Below, piece after piece: positions 9,494 to 35,570 of a DNA stretch of 44,710 bases. This DNA comes from Taibaiella sp. KBW10 (GTDB lineage Bacteria > Bacteroidota > Bacteroidia > Chitinophagales > Chitinophagaceae). The stretch spans positions 212,074 through 256,783 of the forward strand of contig NZ_QAJI01000001.1 in NCBI RefSeq assembly GCF_003852495.1, read 5' to 3'. The position numbers and the translations under genes are program-made. The notes below the pieces were generated by a model. That model worked only from the letters and a program-made list of their open reading frames with translations, was not told the DNA's origin and searched no databases. The stretch's first letter is position 1. Each line of letters starts with the position of its first letter.

Positions 9494-9509
9494 CAACACT
9501 GTCAGGGAC

Positions 9510-10091
9510 TTATTGTTGGGATATTCTTGGATATTCCAACAGAAACGCTCCCCTGGAAGAAGCCCCAAATAAAACCATAAATACCCAGGTGCGATAATAG
9601 GTATCATTAATCATAAGGTTGTTATCGGCATTCAGTCCAATCCGCACTTTCTTAATGTCTATACTACCCGCTATATGCGGCAGCCCTTTGATGTGGACAT
9701 TCTTATGCTTCAGGTAGATAAAACCATCACCGTCTTTAAGCTTGTATCGCAATGTTTGCGTCCGTATTTCCTCCCTGCCTTTATAAAAAGAAACGGATAA
9801 AGTCTGCTGATCTATAATATTGAGGGTAAAATAAGCGAGGCCTACACTATCCCATTTAAGGGTATCCATCATCGAGGCATCTCTTTTAAAATTTCGGTAA
9901 AAATGTTCATTAGCATAATAACTATTGAGGGGAACACCTTCACTTTTCAGCCCCTTAATGGCATAGCTACCATTTAGCAAATGTACTTTATTGGCCGTGA
10001 TGGCCTGATGGCCCTGCCCTTTTTTACCAAAAGGGGCACAGCTACCCAACAACAGCAATAAGGCGATAAGGATAAGCGTACATTTTTTCAT
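9510..10091 (-). CDS. Uncharacterised lipoprotein
   Basis: A 193-residue protein with a lipoprotein signal: a hydrophobic core of leucines ending LLGSCAPF, with the lipidated Cys at about 18. The mature part has a strand-rich central region and ends in a segment RTWVFMVLFGASSRGAFLLEYPRI that could be a hydrophobic beta segment or a membrane contact. No domain is recognised. It is on the minus strand downstream of tsaC, 45 bases away, and may be in the same transcript. Confidence 0.6.
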   Translation of the reverse strand: MKKCTLILIALLLLLGSCAPFGKKGQGHQAITANKVHLLNGSYAIKGLKSEGVPLNSYYANEHFYRNFKRDASMMDTLKWDSVGLAYFTLNIIDQQTLSVSFYKGREEIRTQTLRYKLKDGDGFIYLKHKNVHIKGLPHIAGSIDIKKVRIGLNADNNLMINDTYYRTWVFMVLFGASSRGAFLLEYPRISQQ

Positions 10092-10136
10092 CTTGTTGAT
10101 CTGTTAAAGTATACGGAAGCCGTATGGTGAAAGGAT

Positions 10137-10706
10137 TTAGGGGCGAATCACCACAATGCTGCCATCTTCAAGCCATCTAATGATTCTGGAAGGGGCATGT
10201 ATCGTAGTCTCCTCCTGGCGATACTCGGCAATATAATCCACTCCTTTTTTTATATGCTCCTCAATATCGGTAAATACTTGTGGCGTAGGCTTTCCACTCA
10301 CATTAGCAGAGGTGGAGACGATTGGTTTCTTATAGCGCTTCAGCAAGGTCTTACAAAAAGCATCAGCCGTCACCCGTATGGCCACCGTACCGTCGCTATG
10401 TATGGCATTACCGGCCAAACCTACAGCCTGTGGGTAAATAACGGTTGTGGGGCGGTCAAAAGTATTGAGCAAGCCTACCAGGTCCGGCAAAGGATTCGCC
10501 ACATAATTAAATACCGATTTCACATCGGGAAGTAATATGATCAGGCTTTTGCTATCGGCCCGCTGCTTGAGTGCAAATATTTTCTGAACGGCCGCTTCAT
10601 TTGTCGCATCACAACCAATACCCCAAACCGTATCGGTGGGATATAAGATAAGCCCTCCGGCTGATAAGACTTCTATAGCGCGGTTTACTACTGCGTTCAT
10701 CGTCAT
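10137..10706 (-). CDS. tsaC: L-threonylcarbamoyladenylate synthase
   Basis: A 189-residue YrdC/Sua5-domain enzyme that makes threonylcarbamoyl-AMP from threonine, bicarbonate and ATP, the first step toward the t6A modification of ANN-decoding tRNAs. Diagnostic segments are GGLILYPTDTVWGIGCDA near the N-terminus, the KxR motif in ALKQRADSKSLIIL, and the SAN motif in PIVSTSANVSGKPTP. It is the short, single-domain TsaC form without the Sua5 extension. The ATG at 10706 is preferred; it is one base past the stop codon of the glycosyltransferase, so the two are co-transcribed. The upstream TTG at 10715 would overlap that gene. Confidence 0.93.
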   Translation of the reverse strand: MTMNAVVNRAIEVLSAGGLILYPTDTVWGIGCDATNEAAVQKIFALKQRADSKSLIILLPDVKSVFNYVANPLPDLVGLLNTFDRPTTVIYPQAVGLAGNAIHSDGTVAIRVTADAFCKTLLKRYKKPIVSTSANVSGKPTPQVFTDIEEHIKKGVDYIAEYRQEETTIHAPSRIIRWLEDGSIVVIRP

Positions 10707-19745: not shown

Positions 19746-20342
19746 TTATTTCGGCATTAAAACACCGTCAATTACATAAGTAACACCATTGCTGCTGATT
19801 ACATCAGGAATGGTAATTTTGGCACCATTTACCCACCATGCACCATCTTTTTTCATTAATTTGATCTTTCCACCTTGAACGGTTGTTAATTCCATACCAT
19901 CTTTCAGATCGCTTGATTTATAAGCACCGGCCACTACGTGGTAGGTCAACACTTTAGTCAAATCAGCTTTCATTGCCGGTTTCATTAAATTGTCTAAAGT
20001 TGCTTTAGGCACTTTTGCGAAAGCCTCATTTGTAGGAGCAAAAACCGTGAAAGGACCTGCTCCGCTCAACGTCTCTACTAAACCCGCAGCTTTTACTGCA
20101 GACACTAAAGTGGTATGGTCTTTGGAACCTAATGCGTTTTCTACAATATTTTTAGAAGGCACCATCATAGCACCACCTACTTCCACACCAGTTTCTTTAG
20201 GTGCTTCTACTGGTGTTGCTGGTGTTTCTTTTGACATTTCAGTTGAAGACGCTGCCTCTTTAGCGGGTTCTGTTGAAGACGTACAAGATGCCATGGCGAA
20301 GAAAGATGTGCCCAACATCAGGGAAAGCATTTGCTTTTTCAT
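19746..20342 (-). CDS. Fasciclin (FAS1) domain lipoprotein
   Basis: A 198-residue lipoprotein: signal sequence with lipobox MASC, then a Ser/Thr/Glu/Pro-rich linker (about residues 25-55), then one FAS1 domain. The FAS1 H1 and H2 motifs are clear in GPFTVFAPTNEAF and LTYHVVAGAYKS, ending NGVTYVIDGVLMP. FAS1 domains mediate adhesion or cell-surface interactions; in mycobacteria MPT70/MPT83 are secreted FAS1 proteins under SigK. A close paralogue is at 27593-28165. Upstream it carries the same AAACC-N16-CGTA element as that paralogue and msrB. ATG at 20342 (MKKQM) is preferred over the one at 20348. Confidence 0.9.
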   Translation of the reverse strand: MKKQMLSLMLGTSFFAMASCTSSTEPAKEAASSTEMSKETPATPVEAPKETGVEVGGAMMVPSKNIVENALGSKDHTTLVSAVKAAGLVETLSGAGPFTVFAPTNEAFAKVPKATLDNLMKPAMKADLTKVLTYHVVAGAYKSSDLKDGMELTTVQGGKIKLMKKDGAWWVNGAKITIPDVISSNGVTYVIDGVLMPK

Positions 20343-20368
20343 AATCATTTTTTATTTAAGTTCTATCA

Positions 20369-20397
20369 CATATACGAGCGAATATGAAGAATGGTTT
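20369..20397 (-). promoter_or_regulatory. Putative ECF-type promoter of fasciclin gene 1
   Basis: On the minus strand AAACC (20397-20393), exactly 16 bp, then CGTATATG (20376-20369), 26 bases before the ATG. The same arrangement occurs before msrB and fasciclin gene 2. An AAC-containing -35 with a CGT -10 is the usual form of ECF sigma promoters. Confidence 0.6.
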
Positions 20398-20580
20398 TTT
20401 TAGCACGTATTTTTATTTCTCTCAATCTCAGCGCAGATACAAAATATATCTTCATAAAACAATGATATCCCTTCCACAAAATGAGCTTTAAGAGGCCCTG
20501 CCATTGCCGGTTTTCACATTTTTTGTATATTTAACTATATGTCCCGATCGGGATCAGTAAAAACATACAATCCAAATCCG

Positions 20581-20988
20581 ATGAAGAAACACAAGCACAC
20601 CCTTCTCTTACGCCTGGCCCTTGTTGTGATTTTATTAATGCACAGCATACCCGGTATCTTTAATAACGGAATCAATGATTTTGGCAATTTATACCTGAAC
20701 CATGCCGGATTTGCACCTTTGGGTGTACCACTTGCCTGGGCAATCAAACTATCCCATGTGGTATGCGCGCTTTGCTTTTTATGCAACCGGTATATCACCA
20801 TAGCCGGAATTGCGACTATTTTCATTTTAATAACCGGTATATTCATGATACATTTAAAAGAGGGCTGGTATGTGGTCGGCGGCGGACGTAATGGTATAGA
20901 ATTCAACCTATTACTGATTGTGGTCACTTTATCTGTGATGTTCCCTAACGGATGGACCAAAAACTCCGGCATAAGAAGAAGACGGTAG
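20581..20988 (+). CDS. DoxX-like membrane protein
   Basis: A 135-residue protein with four predicted membrane helices in the DoxX/DoxD arrangement. Family-like features are LLLRLALVVILLMHSIPG at the start, an amphipathic NLYLNHAGFAPLGVPLAWAIK segment, and a final helix after VVGGGRNGIEFN. DoxX proteins are small inner-membrane proteins tied in some bacteria to quinone or thiol redox. The ATG at 20581 is chosen because the in-frame ATG at 20539 lies immediately after a promoter-like TATATTTA. Its divergent neighbour is the fasciclin lipoprotein. Confidence 0.72.
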   Translation: MKKHKHTLLLRLALVVILLMHSIPGIFNNGINDFGNLYLNHAGFAPLGVPLAWAIKLSHVVCALCFLCNRYITIAGIATIFILITGIFMIHLKEGWYVVGGGRNGIEFNLLLIVVTLSVMFPNGWTKNSGIRRRR

Positions 20989-21067
20989 CCTTTAATATTC
21001 TATATGTTTTATTTTACATATTGCCATTTATTGTTTAGTTTGCGGCCACTAAACACCACAACCTATT

Positions 21068-22195
21068 ATGGCATTTCAACGCATACGGCTATTCCTTGTA
21101 ATAGCGGCTACACTATTGTTATCTTTTAAAGTTTCTGCCCAAGATAAAATATGGACCAAAGACAATATAGAAGAAAATGAGCGTACGCTCCTGAGGCAGT
21201 ACCAGAAATATAGTAAAAAACCCGGCAAAGAAAAGTTGCAAAAGGATTTTTTAGCCTCTTTTCAGGAAAGGGTATCTTTTCATCAGTCTGTTGTAGATCC
21301 TATACAAAAAGAAGTGGAAACGGAACAGAAAGACTGGCTCTCTTTGATCAACAGTTTGCGGTCCTTACAATATATTTATCAGACTACAGCGTCGGTCTTA
21401 TCCCAGAATCAAATTACTTATCACGATTATACCCAAACACTAGATAGTACAGAAAGTGTTGCTTTGGCCTCTTTATATGCCAGGGCACAGAAGGCACTTG
21501 GAAGTACCTCAATGCCACATCGGTTTTCTATTGCGTACCGGGCACTTACATTAGTGACGTCTTTAAGTCCGGGTTACAAAAACAGCACCGCGATGCTGGA
21601 GCAGATCAAAGTGCAGGGTATAAAAACGGTATATATACGTCCTGTACAAATGGGCAATCAGGGCAATTACATACAAATACAGGGTAAAGGCAATGCGCCG
21701 CTCGGCGATTATATGAATGAGCAACTGGTACAAGCAACACAAAATGCACTCGGTTACACACTCGTTACCAGTACCGCGGCCAAAGCAGATTATGAAATAG
21801 TTTGCGAATGGACGAGTATTGATTTTGGCAATAGTACTTTTTTAAGGACTAGCTATGAACGACGCGCAACGGTCAACAAGCAAGAAGTAACCGCAACCGT
21901 TCATTATACCACAGAGACCATACCGCTTTCTTCCCGTTTTAAAGTATCAATTATTGACACAAAGAACGGCAATGTGATGGACAATATGAATATTGCCTCT
22001 TCTGATCTTGTAAAACATGTTACCGCAACCTATACCGGCAACGGCGATGCACTCAGCTATGAAGATGCGCAAATGGTAAGAGCATCCAATAGTAATGCAA
22101 TCATGAAAGTCAAAACAGCGCAGGTACAGTTGCTGTTTGACTATCAGATAAAAGAACAAATCCTTACTTTTTTAAACAGAAATGTAGCCTGGTAA
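21068..22195 (+). CDS. Uncharacterised secreted protein
   Basis: A 375-residue exported protein with a Sec signal peptide (about residues 1-24, ending KVSAQ). Residues 30-180 are helical and charged, with the look of a TPR-like helical region. The C-terminal half is beta-rich, with an ADYEIVCEWTSIDF segment and QVQLLFDYQIKEQI near the end. A similar layout is seen in periplasmic proteins that form alpha-helical repeats followed by a lipocalin- or LPP20-like fold, but I cannot assign a family. It stands alone between DoxX and a Crp-type regulator. Confidence 0.6.
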   Translation: MAFQRIRLFLVIAATLLLSFKVSAQDKIWTKDNIEENERTLLRQYQKYSKKPGKEKLQKDFLASFQERVSFHQSVVDPIQKEVETEQKDWLSLINSLRSLQYIYQTTASVLSQNQITYHDYTQTLDSTESVALASLYARAQKALGSTSMPHRFSIAYRALTLVTSLSPGYKNSTAMLEQIKVQGIKTVYIRPVQMGNQGNYIQIQGKGNAPLGDYMNEQLVQATQNALGYTLVTSTAAKADYEIVCEWTSIDFGNSTFLRTSYERRATVNKQEVTATVHYTTETIPLSSRFKVSIIDTKNGNVMDNMNIASSDLVKHVTATYTGNGDALSYEDAQMVRASNSNAIMKVKTAQVQLLFDYQIKEQILTFLNRNVAW

Positions 22196-22251
22196 CGGTG
22201 TACCACAGGATGTGTTGTAAAAGAGGTTAAAAATCGGATAAATTTCTTTGC

Positions 22252-22259
22252 TATATTTG
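22252..22259 (+). promoter_or_regulatory. -7 box for the Crp/Fnr regulator
   Basis: TATATTTG, an exact TAnnTTTG match, ends 12 bases before the ATG at 22272. It rules out the TTG start at 22248, which lies upstream of and partly within the promoter. Confidence 0.55.
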
Positions 22260-22271
22260 AGGTTTACCGGT

Positions 22272-22853
22272 ATGCATATGACAAGGCTATTAACAGACAT
22301 GGATGCTTATCATCCCTTAACGGCAGATTGTAAGCAGGCACTCATTCCCTTATTCCAACAAAAGACCATTGCCAAAAATGAGCTACTGCTCACTATTGGC
22401 ACGGTTCCCAAGTGGTATTACTATATTGAAAAGGGACTGTTTGCCTATTACTACCTTGCAGACAACGGGGATATGATCATCAAAAGATTTTTTGCAGAAC
22501 ATAATTTCATGTCTTCCACAGCCGCTCTAATCCAACAGGAGCCCGGTTTATTTGCAATCGTTGCTTTGGAAGATGCCCGTTATATCCAATTTTCGGCAGC
22601 GCCTTTCAGGGCTTTGTTTGAACAATATCATGACCTGGCACTCTTCCATATTAATTATCTAGAAAAAAACTGGATCGTTGAAAAAGAGCATTTAGAAATC
22701 ACATTGAAATATGAAACGGCAAAGGAGCGTTATGTACAATTCTTAAATACCCAAGCCAACATAATTCCGAGGCTGAAACAGCACCATATTGCTTCTTTTC
22801 TCGGCATCACCCCAACACAGCTGAGCCGGATCAAAAAATCATTATTACTTTAA
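22272..22853 (+). CDS. Crp/Fnr family transcription regulator
   Basis: A 193-residue regulator with a cyclic-nucleotide-binding beta roll (about residues 20-115; YYIEKGLFAYYYL and the following strands) and a C-terminal helix-turn-helix (HHIASFLGITPTQLSRIKK). No Cys cluster for an iron-sulfur centre is present, so it is not an FNR-type oxygen sensor; the ligand is unknown. ATG 22272 or 22278 are both possible. It is 58 bases upstream of an EamA transporter on the same strand, an arrangement common in Bacteroidota, and probably controls that gene. Confidence 0.88.
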   Translation: MHMTRLLTDMDAYHPLTADCKQALIPLFQQKTIAKNELLLTIGTVPKWYYYIEKGLFAYYYLADNGDMIIKRFFAEHNFMSSTAALIQQEPGLFAIVALEDARYIQFSAAPFRALFEQYHDLALFHINYLEKNWIVEKEHLEITLKYETAKERYVQFLNTQANIIPRLKQHHIASFLGITPTQLSRIKKSLLL

Positions 22854-22911
22854 TTCCCTCAACATATGTATAGGGTGCATTGCGGTTATTTGCCGAATTT
22901 TGCATCCATAA

Positions 22912-23793
22912 ATGAAAACGAATCTAAAAGGCGTGGTCCTTGTCCTGCTCGGCGCCATCAGCTATGGCATCCTCGCAACCATCGTTAAATATGCCAACCA
23001 TAAGGGTATACCGGTAAGCGTATTAACCTTCCTGCAATCCCTGATCGGCGTATTATTCCTGATGGCATATGCTTATGCAAAACAAAAAAAGCAAGCCCAT
23101 CATCTACCCTTAACCCATCGTGCCCGCTTAAAGCTTCTTTTATTTGGCACTTCCCTGGGCATTACCAGCTCACTATATTATTTATCCATACAATACATTC
23201 CCGTATCATTAGGCATTGTACTGTTAATGCAATCCATCTGGATGAGCCTCCTACTGGAATACATCCTGTATCGAAAACCTATAGGCAAGCTCAAAATCAT
23301 CGGTGCGCTGACGACAATAGCCGGCACCATTCTTGCGACGAATATTTTGTTTCAGGAAACCGCATTGGCCTGGAAAGGTATTGCGCTGGGTTTGGGTGCT
23401 GCCCTTTCTTATACTATTTCGCTATATGCCTCCAGTACCATAGAAAAGACGCAGCCCAGCCATATCAGAAGCCTCTATCTTGTATCCGGTAGCCTGTTGG
23501 CGGTTATGATGTTCTGGAACAGTGCCATTATCAGCGATTTCACCACATTACGCGCTTTGCCCTGGGGCCTGTTACTGGCTGTTTTCGGCACCATACTCCC
23601 CCCACTCCTTTTTACTAAAGGCATTCCTATGATCGGTATTGGTTTGGGCGGCATCCTGATCGCGGTAGAAATACCCGTATCGGTGCTTTCTGCACATTTA
23701 GTACTGGGAGAACACGTGGCTTTAATGCAATGGACGGGTATCGGGCTGATTCTCTTCTCAGTTATCATGGTGAATAAACCCAAAACAAAATAA
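22912..23793 (+). CDS. EamA/DMT family transporter
   Basis: A 293-residue inner-membrane transporter with ten predicted helices in two EamA repeats (about 1-140 and 150-290). The first repeat starts GVVLVLLGAISYGILATIVKYA, and the second starts AWKGIALGLGAALSYTISLYASS. The drug/metabolite transporter superfamily exports amino acids, nucleobases or toxic compounds; the substrate cannot be read here. It follows the Crp-type regulator and precedes a DUF1801 gene by 35 bases, probably as one unit. Confidence 0.88.
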   Translation: MKTNLKGVVLVLLGAISYGILATIVKYANHKGIPVSVLTFLQSLIGVLFLMAYAYAKQKKQAHHLPLTHRARLKLLLFGTSLGITSSLYYLSIQYIPVSLGIVLLMQSIWMSLLLEYILYRKPIGKLKIIGALTTIAGTILATNILFQETALAWKGIALGLGAALSYTISLYASSTIEKTQPSHIRSLYLVSGSLLAVMMFWNSAIISDFTTLRALPWGLLLAVFGTILPPLLFTKGIPMIGIGLGGILIAVEIPVSVLSAHLVLGEHVALMQWTGIGLILFSVIMVNKPKTK

Positions 23794-23828
23794 AAAGCTT
23801 ATGTTTATGTATCCTTTTTACAAAACGT

Positions 23829-24248
23829 ATGGCCCTGTCAAAACACATACATAATCCGGAAAGCGTAACTGCGTTTATCCAAAATTTAGCCCCTGAATTT
23901 GCCCTGCTGATTACAGCGGTAAGACAAACGATTTTAAATGCTGATCCCCGTATTGGGGAACATATAAAATGGAATGCACCGAGTTTCTTTTATATAGGAG
24001 CACTCCCCGCCTTCGATGCTAAAACATACCAAAGAGATTTATTGGTCATTCATACCCAAAAGGATATAGCCTTACTAATTTTCCCAACGGGCGACCGCAT
24101 ACCGGATAGCAGGGGCATACTGGAAGGAAATTATACCGATGGACGCAGAATGATCACCATACATAATATGCAGGAGCTGCAGGAAAAAGCAAAAGACCTG
24201 CAAGCCCTTATACAACTATGGATTCAAGAAATAACTGCCAAGCTTTAA
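23829..24248 (+). CDS. DUF1801 family protein
   Basis: A 139-residue cytoplasmic protein with the DUF1801 fold: the first helix VTAFIQNLAPEFALLITAVRQTIL, the conserved IKWNAPSFFYIG in place of the usual YGMP, and a final helix rich in Leu/Lys. It is slightly longer than the YdhG type because of an insertion around residues 62-75. Function unknown. It follows the EamA gene closely and precedes the GyrI-like and third DUF1801 genes. Confidence 0.8.
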   Translation: MALSKHIHNPESVTAFIQNLAPEFALLITAVRQTILNADPRIGEHIKWNAPSFFYIGALPAFDAKTYQRDLLVIHTQKDIALLIFPTGDRIPDSRGILEGNYTDGRRMITIHNMQELQEKAKDLQALIQLWIQEITAKL

Positions 24249-24350
24249 TCTCAAAAGCATCAGCATACCTTTGCAATGATCAGAATAAAGGCTACCTCTA
24301 AATATGGGGGTACAAGATACTACTGACATAGGGTTGTCATCTGTCCATGT

Positions 24351-24358
24351 TATTTTTG
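24351..24358 (+). promoter_or_regulatory. -7 box for the GyrI-like gene
   Basis: TATTTTTG is an exact TAnnTTTG match 24 bases before the ATG at 24383. The nearest TTG upstream is only 14 bp away, too close for a typical -33 element. Confidence 0.5.
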
Positions 24359-24382
24359 ATCCTTATCTAAACTATAAAGTAT

Positions 24383-24832
24383 ATGCACATTCCTTCTTTT
24401 TTTATTATCGGTATTAGTATCAAAACCAGCAATGAAAACCAACAGGCCGCACAGGACATTCCGGCCTTGTGGCAACGTTTTATGAGCGAGGGGCTCGCCG
24501 CCAAAATTCCCAATAAGATCAGCGAAGACCTTTATTGTATCTATACAGACTATGAAAAAGATTATACCCGACCTTATACAACAGTACTCGGTTGTAAAGT
24601 ATCTTCTTTAGACCAAATACCGGAGGGAATGACGGGATATTTAATTCCGGAAGCGACTTACCAACTGTTTACGGCAAAGGGAAAACTGGCCGACCAAATT
24701 GTGTTTCATAAATGGTCCGAAATATGGAATTCGGGGATGGAGCGCAAGTACACGGCCGATTTTGAGGTTTATGGCGCAGCAGCACAAAATCCCGAAGCAG
24801 CCGTAGTCGATATTTACCTTTCTATTCCCTAA
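24383..24832 (+). CDS. GyrI-like small-molecule-binding protein
   Basis: A 149-residue stand-alone effector-binding domain of the GyrI/AraC_E_bind type (SHS2 fold). Typical features are the first strand FFIIGISIKTSN, IPALWQRFMSEGLAAKIPN, the YTTVLGCKVSS segment, and near the end the WSEIWNSGMERKYTADFEVY helix-strand followed by VVDIYLSIP. Such domains bind hydrophobic or cationic small molecules, or inhibit gyrase in E. coli. There is no DNA-binding domain. The stop codon is 3 bases before the next DUF1801 gene, so they form a two-gene operon. Confidence 0.85.
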   Translation: MHIPSFFIIGISIKTSNENQQAAQDIPALWQRFMSEGLAAKIPNKISEDLYCIYTDYEKDYTRPYTTVLGCKVSSLDQIPEGMTGYLIPEATYQLFTAKGKLADQIVFHKWSEIWNSGMERKYTADFEVYGAAAQNPEAAVVDIYLSIP

Positions 24833-24835
24833 ATT

Positions 24836-25189
24836 ATGAATGCAGCCGATCAGTTTTTCGCCCGGCAAGAGGAGCCCGTCAAAAGTTGCTTGGTAGCATT
24901 GAGGGCCATCATCCTGGACCAGGATCCCGGCATTAAGGCTTCCTGGAAATATGGCATGCCTTTTTTCTGCTACCGGGAAAAAATGTTTTGCTATTTATGG
25001 ATCCATAAGAAATACAAAAAACCTTATTTAGGCATTGTAGAAGGGCATCGTATCCAGCATCCTGAACTGCTTATGGAGCAGCGATCCAGAATGAAGATCA
25101 TGTTATTTGATCCGGAACGCGACCTTCCGCTGGATACGATCAAAGAAATACTGCAAGCAGCTTTATTATTCTATAAGACAGTAAAATAG
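24836..25189 (+). CDS. DUF1801 family protein
   Basis: A 117-residue protein of the DUF1801 type, the third in the window. Visible features are the opening amphipathic helix EEPVKSCLVALRAIILDQDP, the SWKYGMPFFCY motif, the LGIVEG strand-turn, and the RSRMKIMLFDPERD segment preceding the last helix. It is translationally close to the GyrI-like gene (3-base gap), which suggests a linked function; a terminator follows 22 bases after its stop codon. Confidence 0.78.
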   Translation: MNAADQFFARQEEPVKSCLVALRAIILDQDPGIKASWKYGMPFFCYREKMFCYLWIHKKYKKPYLGIVEGHRIQHPELLMEQRSRMKIMLFDPERDLPLDTIKEILQAALLFYKTVK

Positions 25190-25210
25190 CCCTCAAAAGC
25201 ACAGCTAACC

Positions 25211-25240
25211 AAAGCGGAGCCCCTAACAGGCTCCGCTTTT
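25211..25240 (+). terminator. Terminator after the GyrI/DUF1801 operon
   Basis: An 11-bp stem, AAAGCGGAGCC (25211-25221) and GGCTCCGCTTT (25229-25239), 7-base loop, with a short T run. Confidence 0.85.
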
Positions 25241-25544
25241 AGCAAGTTATCATCGCCATCCGAATACCGCCCCTATCACGCCGCCTCTTTACTTTTCCGG
25301 CAAGACTTTCTGATAGCCATATTATTCAGTATGAAATCTGCCTATACACACCTATTTTTTTCGTCAAGGGTTTATACAGCCTTGATTTTTTAGCGGCACC
25401 TTTTACATCAAGGCAAAAGGTAGCAATACCAATAAATGGAAATCAAAAAAACAAAGAAACTCATTGTTTCCAAAAAGCCGGTAAGCAATTTATTTTAAAA
25501 ACAGGACTTCCCATATAATACTAAATTAATTCAAAATTGGCTTT
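25241..25544. other. Non-coding gap with overlapping inverted repeats
   Basis: About 300 bases without a convincing gene. It contains TCAAGG (25364-25369), CCTTGA (25380-25385) followed by TTTTTT, a second TCAAGG (25408-25413), and an ACCTTTT/AAAAGGT pair (25398-25404 and 25415-25421). The first pair resembles a terminator. The rest is AT-rich and shows nothing else. Confidence 0.4.
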
Positions 25545-25552
25545 TACATTTG
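25545..25552 (+). promoter_or_regulatory. -7 box for the two-component operon
   Basis: TACATTTG is an exact TAnnTTTG match that ends only 4 bases before the ATG at 25557. If used, the mRNA would be leaderless or nearly so. Confidence 0.5.
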
Positions 25553-25556
25553 TATC

Positions 25557-26231
25557 ATGAAAATCCTGATTATAGAAGACGAGCCGGATTTGGCGCAAAG
25601 TATTGCCGAGTATCTCTCCGATGCTCAGTATTTGTGTGAACTGGCGTCCACTTTTAAGCAGGCCTTGGACAAAATAGAAACTTATGAATATGATTGCATC
25701 CTGTTGGACGTGATGTTGCCGGATGGCAATGGCATCAAACTGCTGGAACTATTGAAACAGGAGCAAAAGCAGGAAGGGGTTATCATCATTTCGGCCAAAG
25801 ATGCTTTGGAAGATAAAATAAAAGGATTAGAGATCGGTGCCGACGACTACCTCACTAAACCCTTTCATCTTTCAGAATTAGCGGCCCGCGTGTATTCTAT
25901 CATCAGAAGGAAACAATTCGGGAATCATAATATCATACAACAACAGGAACTGAGTATAGATCTGCGGGCGAAGACCGTTTCGGTACACGATCAGCATGTG
26001 GTACTCACCAAAAAAGAATTTGATCTGCTGGTCTATTTTATCGGGAACAAAAACAGGGTGATTTCCAAAAGTACGCTTGCGGAGCACCTTTCCGGCGACT
26101 TTGCCGATATGCTCGATAACCATGATTTTGTATATGCACATATTAAGAACCTCAAAAAGAAACTCAACGAGGCGCATTGCAGCCCTTATCTGAAAACAAT
26201 TTACGGCACAGGATATAAATGGGAAGCATGA
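25557..26231 (+). CDS. OmpR-family response regulator
   Basis: A 224-residue two-component response regulator. The receiver domain (about 1-115) has acidic residues E7-D8, phospho-acceptor Asp51 in CILLDVMLPDG, Ser79 and Lys101 in LTKPFH. The C-terminal winged helix (about 128-224) has LTKKEFDLLVYFI and the wing YLKTIYGTGYKWEA typical of OmpR/PhoB. The stop codon overlaps the kinase ATG as ATGA, so the pair is translationally coupled. Closest in layout to QseB/CzcR-like systems, but no target gene is visible next to it. Confidence 0.94.
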   Translation: MKILIIEDEPDLAQSIAEYLSDAQYLCELASTFKQALDKIETYEYDCILLDVMLPDGNGIKLLELLKQEQKQEGVIIISAKDALEDKIKGLEIGADDYLTKPFHLSELAARVYSIIRRKQFGNHNIIQQQELSIDLRAKTVSVHDQHVVLTKKEFDLLVYFIGNKNRVISKSTLAEHLSGDFADMLDNHDFVYAHIKNLKKKLNEAHCSPYLKTIYGTGYKWEA

Positions 26232-27523
26232 AAAACCTATTACAAAAATCACTAAAGCCTTTTATTATCTACGCCTTGCTTGTGCTGGCGGCAAGCGTTC
26301 CGGTATACTACCTGCTGGTCGATAATATCTGGCAAAAAGAATTGGATGAGCATAACCAAATTGTAGCCGCCAGAACTGCTTATCAGCTCAACCAGCTTCA
26401 ACTGAATCAGAAAGAACTGGACAGCAGTATCGTATTATGGAACCGGATGCAACCGGAGACTTCCTTACAAAAGGCCGAGGAACATACTCCACTAAAGGAT
26501 AGCAGCTACACGCTTACCCGAATGAATACATACACGCCGGCACATGTAGCTGATCGTTTCAGAGGCCTGCGAAAAAATATCAAGGTCAATGGAACATCTT
26601 ATATACTAACTATAGAAACGAATATTGAAGAAACAGAGGAGACTGTTCTCGTGATTGCGCTCGCGACCCTGCTTTTTTTTATTGTGCTGGTGGTGGGTTT
26701 GGTGATCCTGAACAGAAGGTTATCCCAAAAATTATGGCAGCCTTTTCAGTCTACCTTAAAACAATTGAAATCATTCCGCCTGCACCAACAGCAATCAATC
26801 CATTTCGAAACTTCGGATACCCTTGAGTTTGAACAATTGAACGAAGCCTTGAGCAAACTGATCCATAATAATATTGCGGCATATGCCATACAAAAAGAAT
26901 TTACCGAAAATGCCGCACATGAATTACAAACGCCTTTAGCCATCATCAAAAACAAGCTGGATTTGCTGTTACAAAAGGATGCCCTCACGGATCGGCAATA
27001 CCAGATTATAGAAGACCTCAACAAATCGCTGAGCCGGATTTCCAGGATTAATAAAAACTTATTGCTGCTGGCAAAAATAGAGAACCAGCAATTTGATGCC
27101 ACACAAGAGGTGAATATTAGTGCACTTATTGAGCAAAGTATTAAGGTATTGGGAGAACATATCGAACATAAAGGCCTGGAGATCGATCAAAACATAGGAA
27201 CCGATATACAAGTCAAAGGCAATATAACCCTGGTAGAATTACTGATTCAAAATTTATTGCTCAATGCCATCCGGCATACCCCCGCACAGGGCCACATCAG
27301 AATAGTACTCCACGCGCAACAATTAATATTTACCAACAGTGGCACCAACGCACTAGATTCCGCTAAATTATTCCAAAGATTTACCCGACAAAGCAACGAC
27401 ACGGGCGGCACAGGTTTAGGACTGGCCATTATTGAGCAGATCTGCCAGTTTCATGGCTGGACGGTACACTACGCATTCCAGAACGGAACGCACACCTTTA
27501 GCGTAGATTTTAGCAAAAGATAA
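26228..27523 (+). CDS. Sensor histidine kinase
   Basis: A 431-residue membrane kinase that partners the preceding response regulator. Two membrane helices (about 12-31 and 139-161) enclose a roughly 105-residue periplasmic sensor region. The cytoplasmic part follows: the H box ENAAHELQTP with phospho-acceptor His231, an N box LIQNLLLNAIRHTP, and the G2 box TGLGLAIIEQICQFHGW. The G1 region is the reduced form TNSGT. The start is the ATG at 26228 that overlaps the regulator stop as ATGA. The stimulus is unknown. A terminator follows. Confidence 0.92.
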   Translation: MKNLLQKSLKPFIIYALLVLAASVPVYYLLVDNIWQKELDEHNQIVAARTAYQLNQLQLNQKELDSSIVLWNRMQPETSLQKAEEHTPLKDSSYTLTRMNTYTPAHVADRFRGLRKNIKVNGTSYILTIETNIEETEETVLVIALATLLFFIVLVVGLVILNRRLSQKLWQPFQSTLKQLKSFRLHQQQSIHFETSDTLEFEQLNEALSKLIHNNIAAYAIQKEFTENAAHELQTPLAIIKNKLDLLLQKDALTDRQYQIIEDLNKSLSRISRINKNLLLLAKIENQQFDATQEVNISALIEQSIKVLGEHIEHKGLEIDQNIGTDIQVKGNITLVELLIQNLLLNAIRHTPAQGHIRIVLHAQQLIFTNSGTNALDSAKLFQRFTRQSNDTGGTGLGLAIIEQICQFHGWTVHYAFQNGTHTFSVDFSKR

Positions 27524-27531
27524 GGCATAAA

Positions 27532-27557
27532 AAAGCCCGGTAAGACTACCGGGCTTT
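27532..27557. terminator. Shared bidirectional terminator
   Basis: AAAGCCCGGTA (27532-27542), loop AGAC, TACCGGGCTTT (27547-27557), with A/T tracts on both sides. It sits between the convergent histidine kinase and fasciclin genes and can serve both. Confidence 0.88.
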
Positions 27558-27592
27558 ATAAACTTACACTAAAAATGAATACCCAAGATTAC

Positions 27593-28165
27593 TTAAGGCA
27601 TCAAAACTTTATCAATCACGTGAATCACTCCATTAGACTGGTTCACATCTGCAATCGTTACTTTGGCATCATTACCTTTTGAATCTCTTACATACAGGTT
27701 TTTACCTTTAGTCCAGAACGTCAGTTCTTCTCCCTGTACGGTTTTCATCATGGCTTTACCACCGCCTTTTTTTACCGCATCCCAAACCATTTGCGCACTA
27801 TATTTGCCCGGTATTACGTGATACGTAAGAATCTGGGTCAACTGAGCTTTATTTTCCGGTTTTACCAAAGTCTCTACCGTTCCTTTGGGTAATTTGTTAA
27901 ATGCTTCATTTGTCGGTGCAAACACGGTGAAGGGACCTGCAGAAGCCAGGGTCTCTACTAATCCTGCCGCTTTTACTGCCGCAACCAATGTTGTATGGTC
28001 TTTAGAGTTTACAGCATTCTCTACAATATTTTTTGAGGGATACATAGGTGCACCACCTACCATTACTGTTTTTTCTGCACTCATTTTTTGAGCATTTACA
28101 TTTCCAGCGAATAAAAAGCTGAACGTCAGCATGCTTAAGGCGATTACTTTTGATGTTGTTGTCAT
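27593..28165 (-). CDS. Secreted fasciclin (FAS1) domain protein
   Basis: A 190-residue exported protein with a cleavable Sec signal (ending NVNAQ) and one FAS1 domain. H1 and H2 motifs are GPFTVFAPTNEAF and LTYHVIPGKYSA, ending GVIHVIDKVLMP. It is closely similar to the FAS1 lipoprotein at 19.7 kb through most of the domain but has no lipobox, so it is probably soluble in the periplasm or secreted. It is next to msrB and the ECF sigma/anti-sigma pair, and shares a promoter-like element with msrB. Confidence 0.92.
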   Translation of the reverse strand: MTTTSKVIALSMLTFSFLFAGNVNAQKMSAEKTVMVGGAPMYPSKNIVENAVNSKDHTTLVAAVKAAGLVETLASAGPFTVFAPTNEAFNKLPKGTVETLVKPENKAQLTQILTYHVIPGKYSAQMVWDAVKKGGGKAMMKTVQGEELTFWTKGKNLYVRDSKGNDAKVTIADVNQSNGVIHVIDKVLMP

Positions 28166-28223
28166 TGTTGTTGAATTTAGTAAGATGAATAATTAATTTA
28201 TTATGTGTTGAATCGTTTGCAAT

Positions 28224-28252
28224 CATTTACGAAGCCTGCTTCTTTTTGGATT
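28224..28252 (-). promoter_or_regulatory. Putative ECF-type promoter of fasciclin gene 2
   Basis: On the minus strand AATCC (28252-28248), exactly 16 bp, then CGTAAATG (28231-28224), 58 bases before the ATG. Eleven bases around the -10 (TTCGTAAATGA) are identical to those before msrB. Confidence 0.6.
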
Positions 28253-28274
28253 TATTTTTCAAAAAAATCTCGAT

Positions 28275-28799
28275 TTATTTTTGCGTATCGGGTTCAAAAT
28301 CCAGCGAAATAGAGTTCATACAAAAACGTTTTCCGGTTGGTTTCGGTCCATCATCGAAGATGTGCCCCAGGTGTGCATCACAGCGGCCACACAATACTTC
28401 TGTACGGGTCATGCTATGCGAATTATCTTCTTTATAAAGTACACTGTTCGCACGAAGTGGCTCATAAAAAGAAGGCCAGCCACAAGTCGTGGAAAATTTT
28501 GCCGTCGAGCGGAATAAAGGATTGCCGCAGGCGGCACAATAATAGGTGCCCTTTACATCGTATTCATAATATTTTCCGGTGAAGGCAAATTCTGTTTCTC
28601 CCTCCCGGGCAACGGCATATAATTCGGGCGATAATACTTTCTTCCATTCTGCATTTGTAACGGTAAGTCTTTTCGTATCCGTTCTGGAATAATAAGGATT
28701 TTGTTTCTGAGTAGATTGCGCCTTTCCGCTACAAGCGGTAGCTCCCAATAAAAGGACTGTCATTAAAGCGGCACCTATATATTCAACTGGCTTTTTCAT
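28275..28799 (-). CDS. msrB: Periplasmic MsrB lipoprotein
   Basis: A 174-residue peptide-methionine (R)-S-oxide reductase carried on a lipoprotein signal (ATACS, lipidated Cys about 23), so it acts outside the cytoplasm, repairing oxidised methionines in envelope proteins. Zinc ligands are C88/C91 (YYCAACG) and C137/C140 (LCGRCDAHLGH). The catalytic Cys is about 160 in GKRFCMNSISLDF, and a likely recycling Cys is at about 106 in TTCGWPSF. It needs electrons from a periplasmic thiol system not encoded here. The ECF-type element is 27 bases upstream. Confidence 0.94.
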   Translation of the reverse strand: MKKPVEYIGAALMTVLLLGATACSGKAQSTQKQNPYYSRTDTKRLTVTNAEWKKVLSPELYAVAREGETEFAFTGKYYEYDVKGTYYCAACGNPLFRSTAKFSTTCGWPSFYEPLRANSVLYKEDNSHSMTRTEVLCGRCDAHLGHIFDDGPKPTGKRFCMNSISLDFEPDTQK

Positions 28800-28825
28800 T
28801 GTCTCTAGTTTGTTGTTTTCCCTGT

Positions 28826-28854
28826 CATTTACGAAAAGTTTGATAAAATGGTTT
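28826..28854 (-). promoter_or_regulatory. Putative ECF-type promoter of msrB
   Basis: On the minus strand AAACC (28854-28850), exactly 16 bp, then CGTAAATG (28833-28826), 27 bases before the ATG. The 16-bp spacer holds a GTTTGATAAAA copy whose twin overlaps the -35 (see findings). Confidence 0.65.
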
Positions 28855-28886: not shown

Positions 28887-28894
28887 TATTTTTG
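28887..28894 (+). promoter_or_regulatory. -7 box of the sigma/anti-sigma operon
   Basis: TATTTTTG is an exact housekeeping -7 match 22 bases before the sigma gene. A TTTG lies 15 bp upstream, shorter than the usual spacing. Confidence 0.5.
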
Positions 28895-28915: not shown

Positions 28916-29491
28916 TTGAATCCAGTTATAAAACTTTCCGAAGAAGAGCTTATCTCTTTATTACAACATAAAGACGAAAAGGCGTTTAATTATCTTTACG
29001 ATAATTACTCGGGGGCGATCTATGGATTGATTTTAAGAATTGTTATTTCTAAAGAATATGCAGAAGAAGTAATTCAGGATGTGTTCATGAAAGTGTGGAA
29101 GAATATTGGCCAGTATGATGTTTCGAAAGGAAGATTATACACCTGGATGATTAATATCTCCAGGAATACCGCTATTGATTACCTGAAATCCAAAAGCTAT
29201 CAGAATGAACAAAAAAACCAATCGCTTTCAAATTTCGTAAATGAAGACGGTTCCCAGTTCGAGAATAGTCATATTGACGACATTGGGATGAAACGTGCAG
29301 ACCTTATAGGAATGAAAAGCATTGTGTACAGTTTGAAGAGAGAGTGGCAGGAGCTGATAGAATTAGCTTATTATCAAGGATTCACCCAAATCGAAATTGC
29401 AGACAAATTAAGCATTCCTATAGGAACGGTTAAAACCCGTACCCGGAATGCATTATTAGCTTTAAAAGAATTATTAAAAGATTACCAGTAA
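28916..29491 (+). CDS. ECF-type RNA polymerase sigma factor
   Basis: A 191-residue sigma factor of the ECF group. Region 2 (about 22-90) includes YDNYSGAIYGLILRIV and EEVIQDVFMKVWKNI; region 4 (about 135-190) has WQELIELAYYQGFTQIEIA and the helix-turn-helix SIPIGTVKTRTRNAL. Regions 1 and 3 are lacking, as expected. The start is a TTG at 28916; no ATG exists before the region-2 core, so this is the only reasonable start. The anti-sigma gene begins 6 bases after its stop. It resembles the SigK-type subgroup that pairs with RskA. Confidence 0.92.
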   Translation: MNPVIKLSEEELISLLQHKDEKAFNYLYDNYSGAIYGLILRIVISKEYAEEVIQDVFMKVWKNIGQYDVSKGRLYTWMINISRNTAIDYLKSKSYQNEQKNQSLSNFVNEDGSQFENSHIDDIGMKRADLIGMKSIVYSLKREWQELIELAYYQGFTQIEIADKLSIPIGTVKTRTRNALLALKELLKDYQ

Positions 29492-29496
29492 ATAAA

Positions 29497-30360
29497 TTGG
29501 ATATACAATCATACATATCGTCCGGCATTATTGAAGCTTATGTCATGGGGCTCGCTACAGAAGAAGAGATTCAGATTCTGGAGTGTGTTCAGAAAAACAG
29601 TGCTGCAGTAAAACAGGCCATTATGGAAGCCCAGGAAACCCTAGCAGGTTTTGCTGAGCAAGAAGCGATTGCGCCCCCAACTCATTTAAAGGCAGCTATC
29701 TGGGCAAAAATTCAAGAAGAAGAAGAAAGAGAAGAAACAGCAGCACCTGAAAATAAAATACCTCTTATCGCTGAGATCCCGGTTGTGGAACCAACACCGA
29801 CAAGAGAAAATACTGTTTTTGTACCAAATCATGCGCCGGTTCAAAGGGCCAATAAAGTGCCTTTTAAAACAATCGCTGCAGCCGCTTCTATATTATTTAT
29901 CGTGAGTGCGGGTGGTTTAGTGTACCTGAATCAGGAGCAACAAAAGACGCAAAAACAATTGACGGCTTTACAGCAGGAACAGCAACAATCCCAACTTGCT
30001 TATAACAACTTGCAGAAAAAATGGGACATGAGCAGCAATCCGGAGATGAAAACCATAGCCCTTACCGGTGTGGAAAAACATCCGGGGATGAAAGCCATGG
30101 TATACCTGGATCATAAAACCAATCAGGCTTATCTGAGTGTAGAAAACCTGCCTCCGGCACCGAAAGACCAGCAATACCAGTTATGGGCTATTGTAGATGG
30201 CAAACCGGTAGATGCCGGGATGTATGATCCGCGATCTGACGGTTCTGTACAAAAAATGTATGCCGTAGCAAATGCACAGGCTTTTGCGATTACCCTCGAA
30301 AAAAGCGGTGGCAGCCCAAGCCCAACCATGGAAAACATGTATGTAATGGGTAAAATTTAG
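29497..30360 (+). CDS. RskA-like membrane anti-sigma factor
   Basis: A 287-residue single-pass inner-membrane protein expected to hold the sigma factor inactive. The N-terminal cytoplasmic domain opens ISSGIIEAYVMGLATEEE, typical of RskA-type anti-sigma factors; a flexible Pro/Glu-rich linker follows. The membrane helix is at about 128-146 (AAAASILFIVSAGGLVYL), then a Gln-rich coiled coil (about 148-178). The periplasmic RskA domain contains LPPAPKDQQYQLWAIVDGKPVDAGMY. No zinc-binding HxxxCxxC motif is present. It starts with TTG at 29497, like the sigma gene. Confidence 0.9.
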   Translation: MDIQSYISSGIIEAYVMGLATEEEIQILECVQKNSAAVKQAIMEAQETLAGFAEQEAIAPPTHLKAAIWAKIQEEEEREETAAPENKIPLIAEIPVVEPTPTRENTVFVPNHAPVQRANKVPFKTIAAAASILFIVSAGGLVYLNQEQQKTQKQLTALQQEQQQSQLAYNNLQKKWDMSSNPEMKTIALTGVEKHPGMKAMVYLDHKTNQAYLSVENLPPAPKDQQYQLWAIVDGKPVDAGMYDPRSDGSVQKMYAVANAQAFAITLEKSGGSPSPTMENMYVMGKI

Positions 30361-33057: not shown

Positions 33058-33486
33058 GTGAAAAACGAGCAATGCGAACAAATTTTGATGCGTAAAAAAA
33101 TTACGCCTACTGCCATGCGTATCCTTACGCTGGAGTTTTTACTGGAACAATCTGCAGCCGTATCCCTTACAGATATTGAAAATCACTTCTTCCGGTCGGA
33201 CAGGATTACGCTGTACCGAACCCTCAAAACCTTTGAACAAAAAGGACTGATCCATAGTATACAGGAAACCAATACGACTAAATATTCTTTATGTAAAGAC
33301 AGCTGCGGAGAAGGTACGCATAACGACAATCACCTGCACTTTTATTGTGTTCAATGTAAGGAGACTGTGTGCCTGGAACACGTAGACCTTTCTCCTGTCA
33401 TGCTCCCCCCGAATTTCGAAGTACAGCAAATCCGTTTTTTTGCCAAAGGTGTTTGTAATAAATGCAGCCGCCAAACAATGCAATAG
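33058..33486 (+). CDS. Fur-family metal-responsive regulator
   Basis: A 142-residue Fur/Zur/PerR-family repressor. The winged helix has ITPTAMRILTLEFLL and the recognition region DRITLYRTLKTFEQKGLIHSI. The metal-site His cluster is HNDNHLHFYC (about 88-97), and two CxxC pairs for structural zinc are C97/C100 and C133/C136. It starts at GTG 33058. The next gene is a Zn/Cd-type P-type ATPase, so a zinc-responsive (Zur-like) role is the best guess, but Fur or PerR cannot be ruled out by sequence reading. Confidence 0.9.
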   Translation: MKNEQCEQILMRKKITPTAMRILTLEFLLEQSAAVSLTDIENHFFRSDRITLYRTLKTFEQKGLIHSIQETNTTKYSLCKDSCGEGTHNDNHLHFYCVQCKETVCLEHVDLSPVMLPPNFEVQQIRFFAKGVCNKCSRQTMQ

Positions 33487-33513
33487 GATTGCAGTCCTAC
33501 CGCTTTATCTTTG
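33484..33513 (+). promoter_or_regulatory. Palindrome and -7 box before the P-type ATPase
   Basis: TAGGATTGCAGTCCTA (33484-33499) is a 16-bp palindrome with one mismatched pair; it starts at the stop codon of the Fur-family gene. TATCTTTG (33506-33513), an exact -7 match, follows 6 bases later. The palindrome would cover the promoter's spacer/-33 region. Confidence 0.55.
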
Positions 33514-33590
33514 TATTCTAAATCAGGAACAATTTTCCAAACATCAGAAATATTGCTTCTTATCATAAACATTAAAGAATACAAAACGAT

Positions 33591-35570
33591 ATGAGCCATA
33601 CGCATCAAACAGCCGATCACTGCTGCGCCACAGCAGAAAAAACAGGACACAAACCGGCCGGCACCGCACATAATGAAGAAGACGGGCACGATCATTCCGC
33701 CACAAGCGACAGTACCTTAAAACTGTTTACCCCCGCAATTATCTCCTTAGCCCTTTTATTACTCGCGATCGCTTTGGACAACTGGATGCCGCAATCCTGG
33801 TTTAAAGGCTGGATACGCATCGTATGGTATATTGCCGCTTATGCGCCCGTAGGTATTCCGGTACTTAAAGAAGCCGTACAGAGCATTGCAAAAGGTGCCG
33901 TTTTTTCTGAATTCCTGCTCATGTCGATTGCAACAATTGGTGCCTTTGCCATCGGCGAATATCCCGAAGCGGTGGCCGTTATGTTATTTTATGCGGTAGG
34001 CGAGGTCTTCCAGACTTTAGCGGTGAGCCGGGCGAAAGCTAATATTAAATCCTTACTGGATCAAAGACCAGATGAAGTAACGATTATTACAAACGGACAA
34101 ACGCAAACGATCAAGGCAGAAAGCGCACCCATAGGCGCCATTATCCAGCTGAAACCCGGAGAAAAGCTGGGCTTGGATGGCACCTTACTATCCGAAACGG
34201 CTTCTTTTAACACTGCCGCCTTAACTGGAGAGAGCAAACCGGACACCAAAACAAAAGGGGCAACGGTTTTAGCCGGGATGATTAACCTTAATACAGTGGC
34301 TCAGGTAAGCGTGACAACTGCCTATACCGATAGTAAACTCAGCAAGATCTTAACGTTGGTGCAAAATGCCACAGCACAAAAAGCCCCCACAGAACTATTC
34401 ATCAGAAAATTCGCCCGGATATACACGCCTATTGTAGTCGTGCTGGCCATTCTGATCTGTATATTACCCATGCTCTTTGTTTCCGATTATCAATTCAGAG
34501 ACTGGCTGTACCGTGCTTTAGTCTTCCTGGTGATCTCCTGCCCCTGCGCCCTTGTAATCTCCATTCCCCTGGGCTATTTCGGAGGCATTGGTGCGGCCAG
34601 CAAAAACGGTATTTTATTTAAGGGCAGCAATTTCCTCGATATTATGGCCGGTATACAGCATGTCGTAATGGACAAAACCGGTACCCTCACAGAAGGTGTC
34701 TTTCAGGTACAGGAAGTAATCCTGCAACCAGGCGTAGACCGGGATTCGATCCTACAAATGGTGAATGCCTTGGAAAATAATAGTACCCATCCGGTAGCAA
34801 CCGCAATTCATCAATTTGTAGGTGCCGTTGATCCAGCGATTACCTTAAGTGAGGTTGAAGAAATTGCCGGTCATGGCCTGAAAGCAAGTGTAGGCGGTAA
34901 AGAACTGCTGGTGGGTAATTTCAAACTGATGGATAAGTTTTCCATACCCTACCCTATAGATCCTGCTACAATTGTGTATACCGTGATTGCCATTGCCTAT
35001 GATCATAAATTTGCCGGTTACCTGACCATTGCCGACAGCATTAAAACAGATGCACAGGTTGCTATTGATAAGCTTAAAGCCTTAAACGTACACACCACCA
35101 TGTTGAGTGGTGATAAAAACACCGTGGTACAATATGTAGCCCGCTCCTTAAGCATCGACAATGCTTTTGGCGATCTCCTGCCCGAAGACAAAGTCGATAA
35201 AGTAAAGGCTTTGAAAGCTAATGGTCAGACCGTCGCTTTCGTAGGCGACGGGGTTAATGATGCTCCGGTAGTGGCCCTCAGTGATGCCGGCATTGCGATG
35301 GGTGGCCTGGGCAGCGATGCAACCATCGAAACGGCCGATGTGGTGATCCAGGATGACAGACCGGAAAAAATCCCCATGGCTATCCATATCGGAAAGCAAA
35401 CTAAAAAGATTGTCTGGCAAAATATTACCCTGGCTTTTGCCGTCAAAGCGGTCGTACTCGTTTTAGGTGCCGGTGGCTTGGCAACCATGTGGGAAGCGGT
35501 GTTTGCAGATGTAGGTGTTGCTTTGCTCGCCATTTTAAATGCAGTACGGATACAAAGCATGCGCTTTTAA
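33591..35570 (+). CDS. P1B-type heavy-metal ATPase (Zn/Cd/Pb class)
   Basis: A 659-residue inner-membrane pump that exports divalent soft metals using ATP. Conserved features are the actuator TGES at about 212-215, the transmembrane metal site SCPCALV (CPC at 317-319), the phosphorylated Asp361 in DKTGTLTEG, the HP locus NSTHPVATAIH, and GDGVNDAPVVALSD in the P domain. The CPC plus the overall pattern fit the ZntA/CadA group. The usual N-terminal HMA domain is missing; a His-rich, Cys-Cys tail (7 His in 35 residues) takes its place. It lies directly downstream of a Fur-family gene. Confidence 0.93.
   Translation: MSHTHQTADHCCATAEKTGHKPAGTAHNEEDGHDHSATSDSTLKLFTPAIISLALLLLAIALDNWMPQSWFKGWIRIVWYIAAYAPVGIPVLKEAVQSIAKGAVFSEFLLMSIATIGAFAIGEYPEAVAVMLFYAVGEVFQTLAVSRAKANIKSLLDQRPDEVTIITNGQTQTIKAESAPIGAIIQLKPGEKLGLDGTLLSETASFNTAALTGESKPDTKTKGATVLAGMINLNTVAQVSVTTAYTDSKLSKILTLVQNATAQKAPTELFIRKFARIYTPIVVVLAILICILPMLFVSDYQFRDWLYRALVFLVISCPCALVISIPLGYFGGIGAASKNGILFKGSNFLDIMAGIQHVVMDKTGTLTEGVFQVQEVILQPGVDRDSILQMVNALENNSTHPVATAIHQFVGAVDPAITLSEVEEIAGHGLKASVGGKELLVGNFKLMDKFSIPYPIDPATIVYTVIAIAYDHKFAGYLTIADSIKTDAQVAIDKLKALNVHTTMLSGDKNTVVQYVARSLSIDNAFGDLLPEDKVDKVKALKANGQTVAFVGDGVNDAPVVALSDAGIAMGGLGSDATIETADVVIQDDRPEKIPMAIHIGKQTKKIVWQNITLAFAVKAVVLVLGAGGLATMWEAVFADVGVALLAILNAVRIQSMRF

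Follow-up and report, generated by a model that had tools for sequence, protein, structure and literature searches.

A putative SigK-type regulon in Taibaiella sp. KBW10, with a conserved promoter-like box inside the sigma factor gene

The stretch of DNA analysed here, called the window throughout, comprises 44,710 nucleotides of Taibaiella sp. KBW10 (Bacteroidota, Chitinophagaceae; assembly GCF_003852495.1, contig NZ_QAJI01000001.1, positions 212,074 to 256,783, forward strand) and contains a gene for a SigK-like extracytoplasmic function (ECF) sigma factor, sigK (28916..29491, + strand; PF04542, PF04545), followed by an rskA-like anti-sigma gene (29497..30360, +; PF10099, RskA_C). The present analysis concerns a short bipartite box that precedes three genes of this region and recurs within sigK itself. 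Two of the three are divergent from sigK-rskA, namely msrB, which encodes an exported peptide-methionine (R)-S-oxide reductase (28275..28799, −; PF01641, TIGR00357), and fas2, which encodes an exported fasciclin-domain protein (27593..28165, −; PF02469). The third, fas1, is situated 8 kb off and also encodes an exported fasciclin-domain protein (19746..20348, −; PF02469, export judged from the N-terminal sequence). In the whole genome, fas1 and fas2 are the only fasciclin matches and the window's rskA-like gene is the only RskA_C match.

The boxes are found at 20369..20397 (−; AAACC-N16-CGTATATG), ending 20 bases before the start codon of fas1, at 28224..28252 (−; AATCC-N16-CGTAAATG), ending 58 bases before that of fas2, and at 28826..28854 (−; AAACC-N16-CGTAAATG), ending 26 bases before that of msrB. 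An earlier note on this DNA had described these three minus-strand elements and had taken the three genes to be the direct regulon of the neighbouring sigma factor; the positions and the spacer of exactly 16 bp are correct in each case, as is its observation that fas1, fas2 and msrB lack a TAnnTTTG box (none inside 250 bp). Its statement that there was no further copy is valid for the intergenic regions to which that search was confined, but overlooks a fourth copy on the plus strand inside sigK (29215..29243; AAACC-N16-CGTAAATG, with CGTA at 29236-29239), which covers sigK codons 100-109 and is situated 253 bases upstream of rskA. A housekeeping-type -10 element of the form TAnnTTTG (TATTTTTG, 28887..28894, +) is found 29 bases upstream of sigK.

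Concerning the frequency of the box, the pattern AAHCC-N16-CGTAWATG matches exactly at four places in the window, where shuffles predict 0.01, and at no other place across the 3.6-Mb genome (12 contigs, 99.84% complete), in which the pattern read backwards, used as a control, has three matches. In the genome scan that the earlier note had proposed as a test of chance frequency, the bare number is thus near chance, whereas clustering and position are non-random: all four boxes fall inside 9 kb, and three of them lie 20-58 bases before fas1, fas2 and msrB. With one mismatch allowed, no excess was found in the window's genome (37 matches versus 43 for the backwards control), such that no wider regulon is readable from this genome by pattern alone. 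A weight matrix derived from 33 sites, all from other genomes, gives the intragenic copy the top score in the window (27.9), followed by the three reported boxes (24.2, 19.4 and 18.3) and, as the next place, a site scoring 10.5. Whole-genome scans of eight genomes reached through their loci yielded 29 matches versus 12 for the control, several of the matches being known sites.

The sigma factor possesses the Sigma70 r2 and r4 domains, its nearest solved structure is M. tuberculosis SigK (PDB 4nqw, 85 bits; next structure 63), and its top NCBIfam model is SigK, with 131.5 bits at a cut-off of 226 that is not reached (next model 123.2). The next gene encodes an RskA-type anti-sigma factor (PF10099, E 1.1e-22), and 129 of the 130 sigK loci fetched from the window's family have an rskA match in the same orientation. 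The cysteine pair typical of SigK in groups ECF18/19 is absent from the window sigma, which contains no cysteine at all. As far as the accessible part of the source (PMC7509140) states, 94% of ECF18 and 56% of ECF19 members have two conserved cysteines; since 44% of ECF19 also lack the pair, it is not strictly defining. On these matches the window sigma is SigK-like, and the ECF18/19 group name is applied by resemblance.

The intragenic box occurs at homologous codons in 38 of 39 close sigK orthologs, window included, and at the same codons in 12 of 24 farther orthologs. Shuffling of synonymous codons, which keeps the protein and the codon use of each gene but not relatedness, gives means of 1.4 (maximum 7 of 39) for the close and 0.27 (maximum 3 of 24) for the farther orthologs, and none of 17 outgroup ECF genes carries an intragenic box. 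In a sample of 130 sigK genes from the window's family, drawn among the matches listed, 71 contain it (shuffle null 2.3, maximum 7 in 500 shuffles), as do 30 of 60 genes of a phylum-wide set partly hand-picked for spread (null 1.0, maximum 5 in 500 shuffles), 28 of these 30 at the homologous place; being made on related sequences, these counts do not represent independent events. The matches in family f24 (L406, L409), 33 bases off the homologous place, are contained in the 30 and in the 101 boxed genes treated below, but not in the 28, and matches with a 17-bp spacer were left out: locus L284 is not among the 71, and the matches in f23, f17, f43 and one gene of f39 are not counted. The 101 boxed genes encode 76 different peptides across the box, and base 28 of the box, which the search pattern leaves free, is T in all 101 intragenic boxes and equally in 35 of 35 intergenic sites. 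When the 183 codons are ranked by synonymous constraint, codons 100, 101 and 105-109 all fall within the first 10. Given that the peptide varies and that a base outside the pattern is fixed as T, the intragenic box is, on this comparative evidence, conserved by selection on the DNA and not on the protein. As a separate observation, AATCT-N16-CGTA stands at the homologous place in five sigK genes without the exact box (L152, L233, L236, L257, L269), and in these loci a fasciclin gene is located downstream of rskA.

Of the 38 other close sigK loci, 11 retain fas2-msrB divergent from sigK-rskA (found in Edaphocola, Taishania, Pedobacter, a Myroides-type locus, three Sphingobacterium and a metagenome-assembled genome of Flavobacteriales), five from Chryseobacterium have the same order without msrB, one (L085) is rearranged, and 21 exhibit no fas2 within the stretch compared. 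A box with a spacer of 15-17 bp precedes fas2 in 12 of the 17 same-order loci, window included (background for the strict box 0.014 per 250 bp, with one base free 0.023), and all 17 upstream regions match a much looser -35 pattern (background 0.08 per 250 bp). In sigK-containing genomes of the window's family, 37 of 51 fas2 orthologs, window included, are boxed, counting one box (L323) that is possibly due to chance, with its 17-bp spacer and its distance of 213 bases from the start; the number rises to 45 of 51 when one -35 base may vary. Some of the boxed orthologs lie on contigs other than that of sigK (e.g., G060, G107). The box, strict or loosened, precedes none of 12 related fasciclin genes whose genomes lack a sigK match at 1e-20, a contrast that mixes presence of the sigma factor with gene type, as these genes are more distant paralogs; nor does it, in either form, precede any of seven distant fasciclin paralogs in genomes with sigK. 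Among 19 second fasciclin loci examined, five are boxed, one has a weak box and 13 have none, the five including the likely fas1 ortholog of both nearest relatives (L432, L433).

In Sphingobacterium, 19 boxes near 13.1-14.0 kb of the locus, chosen for having the box such that their counts give no rate, precede a ferritin-like gene in 17 cases and a response-regulator-like gene in two. The ferritin-like protein exhibits an RRxFL-type N-terminus, and its boxed gene is situated close to sigK-rskA (L068, L064, L076 and others, around 13.1-13.6 kb, −); the Ferritin_2 domain was checked in one protein (L068). The boxes upstream of the response-regulator-like gene are found around 13964 (−) in L074 and 13970 (−) in L077. 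The boxed ferritin-like gene near sigK-rskA in this genus suggests that the regulon varies between genera.

The proposal of a direct regulon is thus strongly supported by comparison, since same-order relatives retain the box upstream of fas2 and, more loosely, of msrB, since it is found before fas2 orthologs away from sigK and before the Ferritin_2 gene of Sphingobacterium, and since it is absent before the related, more distant fasciclin genes of genomes without a sigK match; it was incomplete in that the site inside sigK had been missed. The window sigma would recognize the window's boxes directly.

Concerning the region upstream of sigK, a SigK box within 200 bp is found in none of the 39 close loci, and TAnnTTTG is present in 22 of them, window included (shuffles 19%). 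Among the 130 loci of the window's family, the box is solely intragenic in 62 and solely upstream (within 300 bp) in 28, nine have it at both places and 31 at neither, with near-boxes such as AATCT-N16-CGTA in some of the latter; altogether, 37 carry the upstream box. In the distant family f39 the upstream layout is the commoner one (8 of 13), an intragenic box, with a 17-bp spacer, being found in 1 of 13. Judged from these counts, the two layouts tend to be mutually exclusive: Fisher's test, which disregards the tree, gives 1e-5, an overstatement, and a tree-aware test, in which two independent traits were simulated on a quick sigma-protein tree (box columns dropped, midpoint root, 1000 runs), gives p values of 0.028 (one-sided) and 0.047 (two-sided). 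The rearranged locus L085 is the sole close ortholog without the intragenic box, CGTA being replaced there by CATA; boxed msrB and fas2 now precede sigK in the same orientation (8610-10564), and in this single case their boxes could feed the sigK operon instead.

We consider it very probable that fas1, fas2 and msrB form a SigK regulon and that the box inside sigK is a promoter of rskA that provides negative feedback. The consensus AAWCCR-N15-CGTAnATR would be the promoter at which a SigK-family ECF sigma factor acts. A housekeeping promoter ahead of sigK would supply a basal amount of SigK, which the membrane anti-sigma factor RskA would hold until a signal frees SigK and its complex with RNA polymerase transcribes fas1, fas2 and msrB. 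SigK would also initiate within the coding sequence of sigK, and the resulting transcript would bear rskA but no intact sigK. RskA would then rise without a rise of SigK, in a mainly negative loop that shuts the response down, with targets and inhibitor increasing jointly while the sigma factor stays level. The signal is probably oxidative or envelope stress, as suggested by the MsrB, ferritin-like and exported fasciclin targets.

Several results weigh against this interpretation. The bare pattern is not enriched genome-wide: across 39 relatives, including the window's genome, it has 28 strict matches versus 64 for the backwards control (two of the 28, in G017 and G020, being intragenic sites in sigK), such that the evidence rests on position and conservation. 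Only 6 of 12 msrB orthologs have the exact box, and 10 of 12 are reached under the much looser pattern with its background of 0.08 per 250 bp. The exact intragenic box is missing in 59 of the 130 sigK genes of the family, and the 31 loci named above are boxed neither inside nor upstream of the gene. TAnnTTTG was not seen before sigK in 17 of the 39 close loci, so that a housekeeping promoter is not established for all of them. The exclusion of the two layouts is only marginal on the tree, and a strict tree-based pair test had too few supported pairs. Finally, polymerase might occupy the sites without initiating productively.

The foremost alternative, although we regard it as unlikely, is that the intragenic site lowers transcription of sigK, as a roadblock or a sigma-dependent pause site, and is not an rskA promoter. 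Promoter-like sites inside genes can bind holoenzyme or induce pausing, according to the accessible parts of two studies (PMC12781872, PMC10771440), and the same-strand position around 300 nt into sigK would allow for it. However, the site fits the full promoter consensus in both parts, spacing and T28, rskA follows downstream on the same strand in all but one of the family loci fetched, and in Corynebacterium glutamicum a productive promoter is described at a comparable place (PMC3489674, in the part accessible). Both effects could, moreover, coexist with each other.

It is improbable, to a greater degree, that the boxes are read by another ECF sigma factor of the cell. Bacteroidota genomes of this kind are expected to hold other ECF genes, which counts in favour of such a factor; against it, box and sigK co-occur, the sigK locus being boxed inside or upstream in 99 of the 130 family loci. 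We give still less credence to an intragenic promoter that chiefly yields a truncated sigma factor (region 4 only) or a small RNA: an in-frame Met codon follows the box in 80 of the 101 boxed genes (GTG and TTG not counted), but 21 have none, the window's Met (in IGM) is replaced by Phe, Leu or Ile in many orthologs, and the directly downstream position of rskA speaks against such products. A truncated sigma factor as the main product was rejected, as no Met is fixed. Least of all can the intragenic conservation be attributed to the protein only, with linker residues that happen to spell the box, since, frequent as Asn/Ile-Gln and Val-Asn are in close orthologs, box conservation is lost upon shuffling of synonymous codons, the 101 boxed genes show 11 different residues ahead of Val, and the codon that follows GTA has T as its last base in every one of them, compared with 64% T overall for Asn, Tyr, His and Asp codons there; protein conservation as sole cause is refuted by the shuffles together with the fixed T28.

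The preferred interpretation, a SigK regulon with an rskA promoter inside sigK, would assign a defined regulon to a SigK-type system of Bacteroidota and would constitute a clear case of a promoter double-coded in protein-coding DNA across long evolutionary distances. If it is true, the intragenic layout gives feedback on the inhibitor only, whereas the classical upstream layout feeds back on sigma and anti-sigma factor; the two thus predict a different net feedback and are comparable by synonymous codon changes alone. In a more general form, which we favour with moderate confidence, several families of Bacteroidota would carry a SigK self-promoter written in the linker codons of the sigma gene, selected as DNA while the peptide drifts, with lineages that switch between the two layouts and a sign of feedback that can be read from the genome. 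In addition, a promoter search limited to intergenic regions can overlook the strongest site of a regulon.

Elsewhere in the window (33058-35570, +), a FUR-family regulator gene adjoins a P-type (E1-E2) ATPase gene, and the two are probably a metal-response pair.

MPT70 and MPT83 are fasciclin-type proteins, and the window resembles the mycobacterial SigK-RskA-MPT83 cassette in having a fasciclin-type target with a SigK-type box beside sigK. As far as the accessible part of the source describes this cassette (PMC7509140), the likeness extends to a SigK-like sigma factor, an RskA partner and an adjacent exported-protein gene with a SigK site, and the SigK site is also known from Gram-negatives such as Yersinia (ECF18/19). 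The same source reports that sigK of M. tuberculosis is autoregulated from upstream (Rv0449cp), unlike the window sigK, which has no upstream box and an intragenic one; furthermore, cysteine is absent from the window sigma, in contrast to most members of ECF18. The titles and abstract openings listed by literature searches, whose coverage leaves out most subscription papers, gave no pointer to this element in Bacteroidota. In Caulobacter, the sigV promoter sits inside cabp (PMC13171946, accessible part), i.e., likewise within an upstream coding sequence, but it drives the sigma gene, whereas the window's box is inside the sigma gene and faces the inhibitor.

Most similar, and a proven precedent, is the sigH-rshA system of C. 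glutamicum, for which the accessible passages of Busche et al. 2012 (PMC3489674) describe a SigH-dependent promoter, PrshA, inside sigH that drives rshA only, with sigH transcribed from housekeeping promoters, and propose a quick shut-down. Those passages contain neither a codon-level conservation test nor an alternative layout, and they concern a single species of Actinobacteria with a SigH/SigR-like promoter (GGAA/GTT). Despite these differences, both systems have a cognate-type box in the sigma gene that faces the anti-sigma gene, and both have no sigma-type box before the sigma gene, as holds for the 200 bp upstream in all 39 close loci, a likeness qualified by the 37 of 130 family loci that do carry one within 300 bp.

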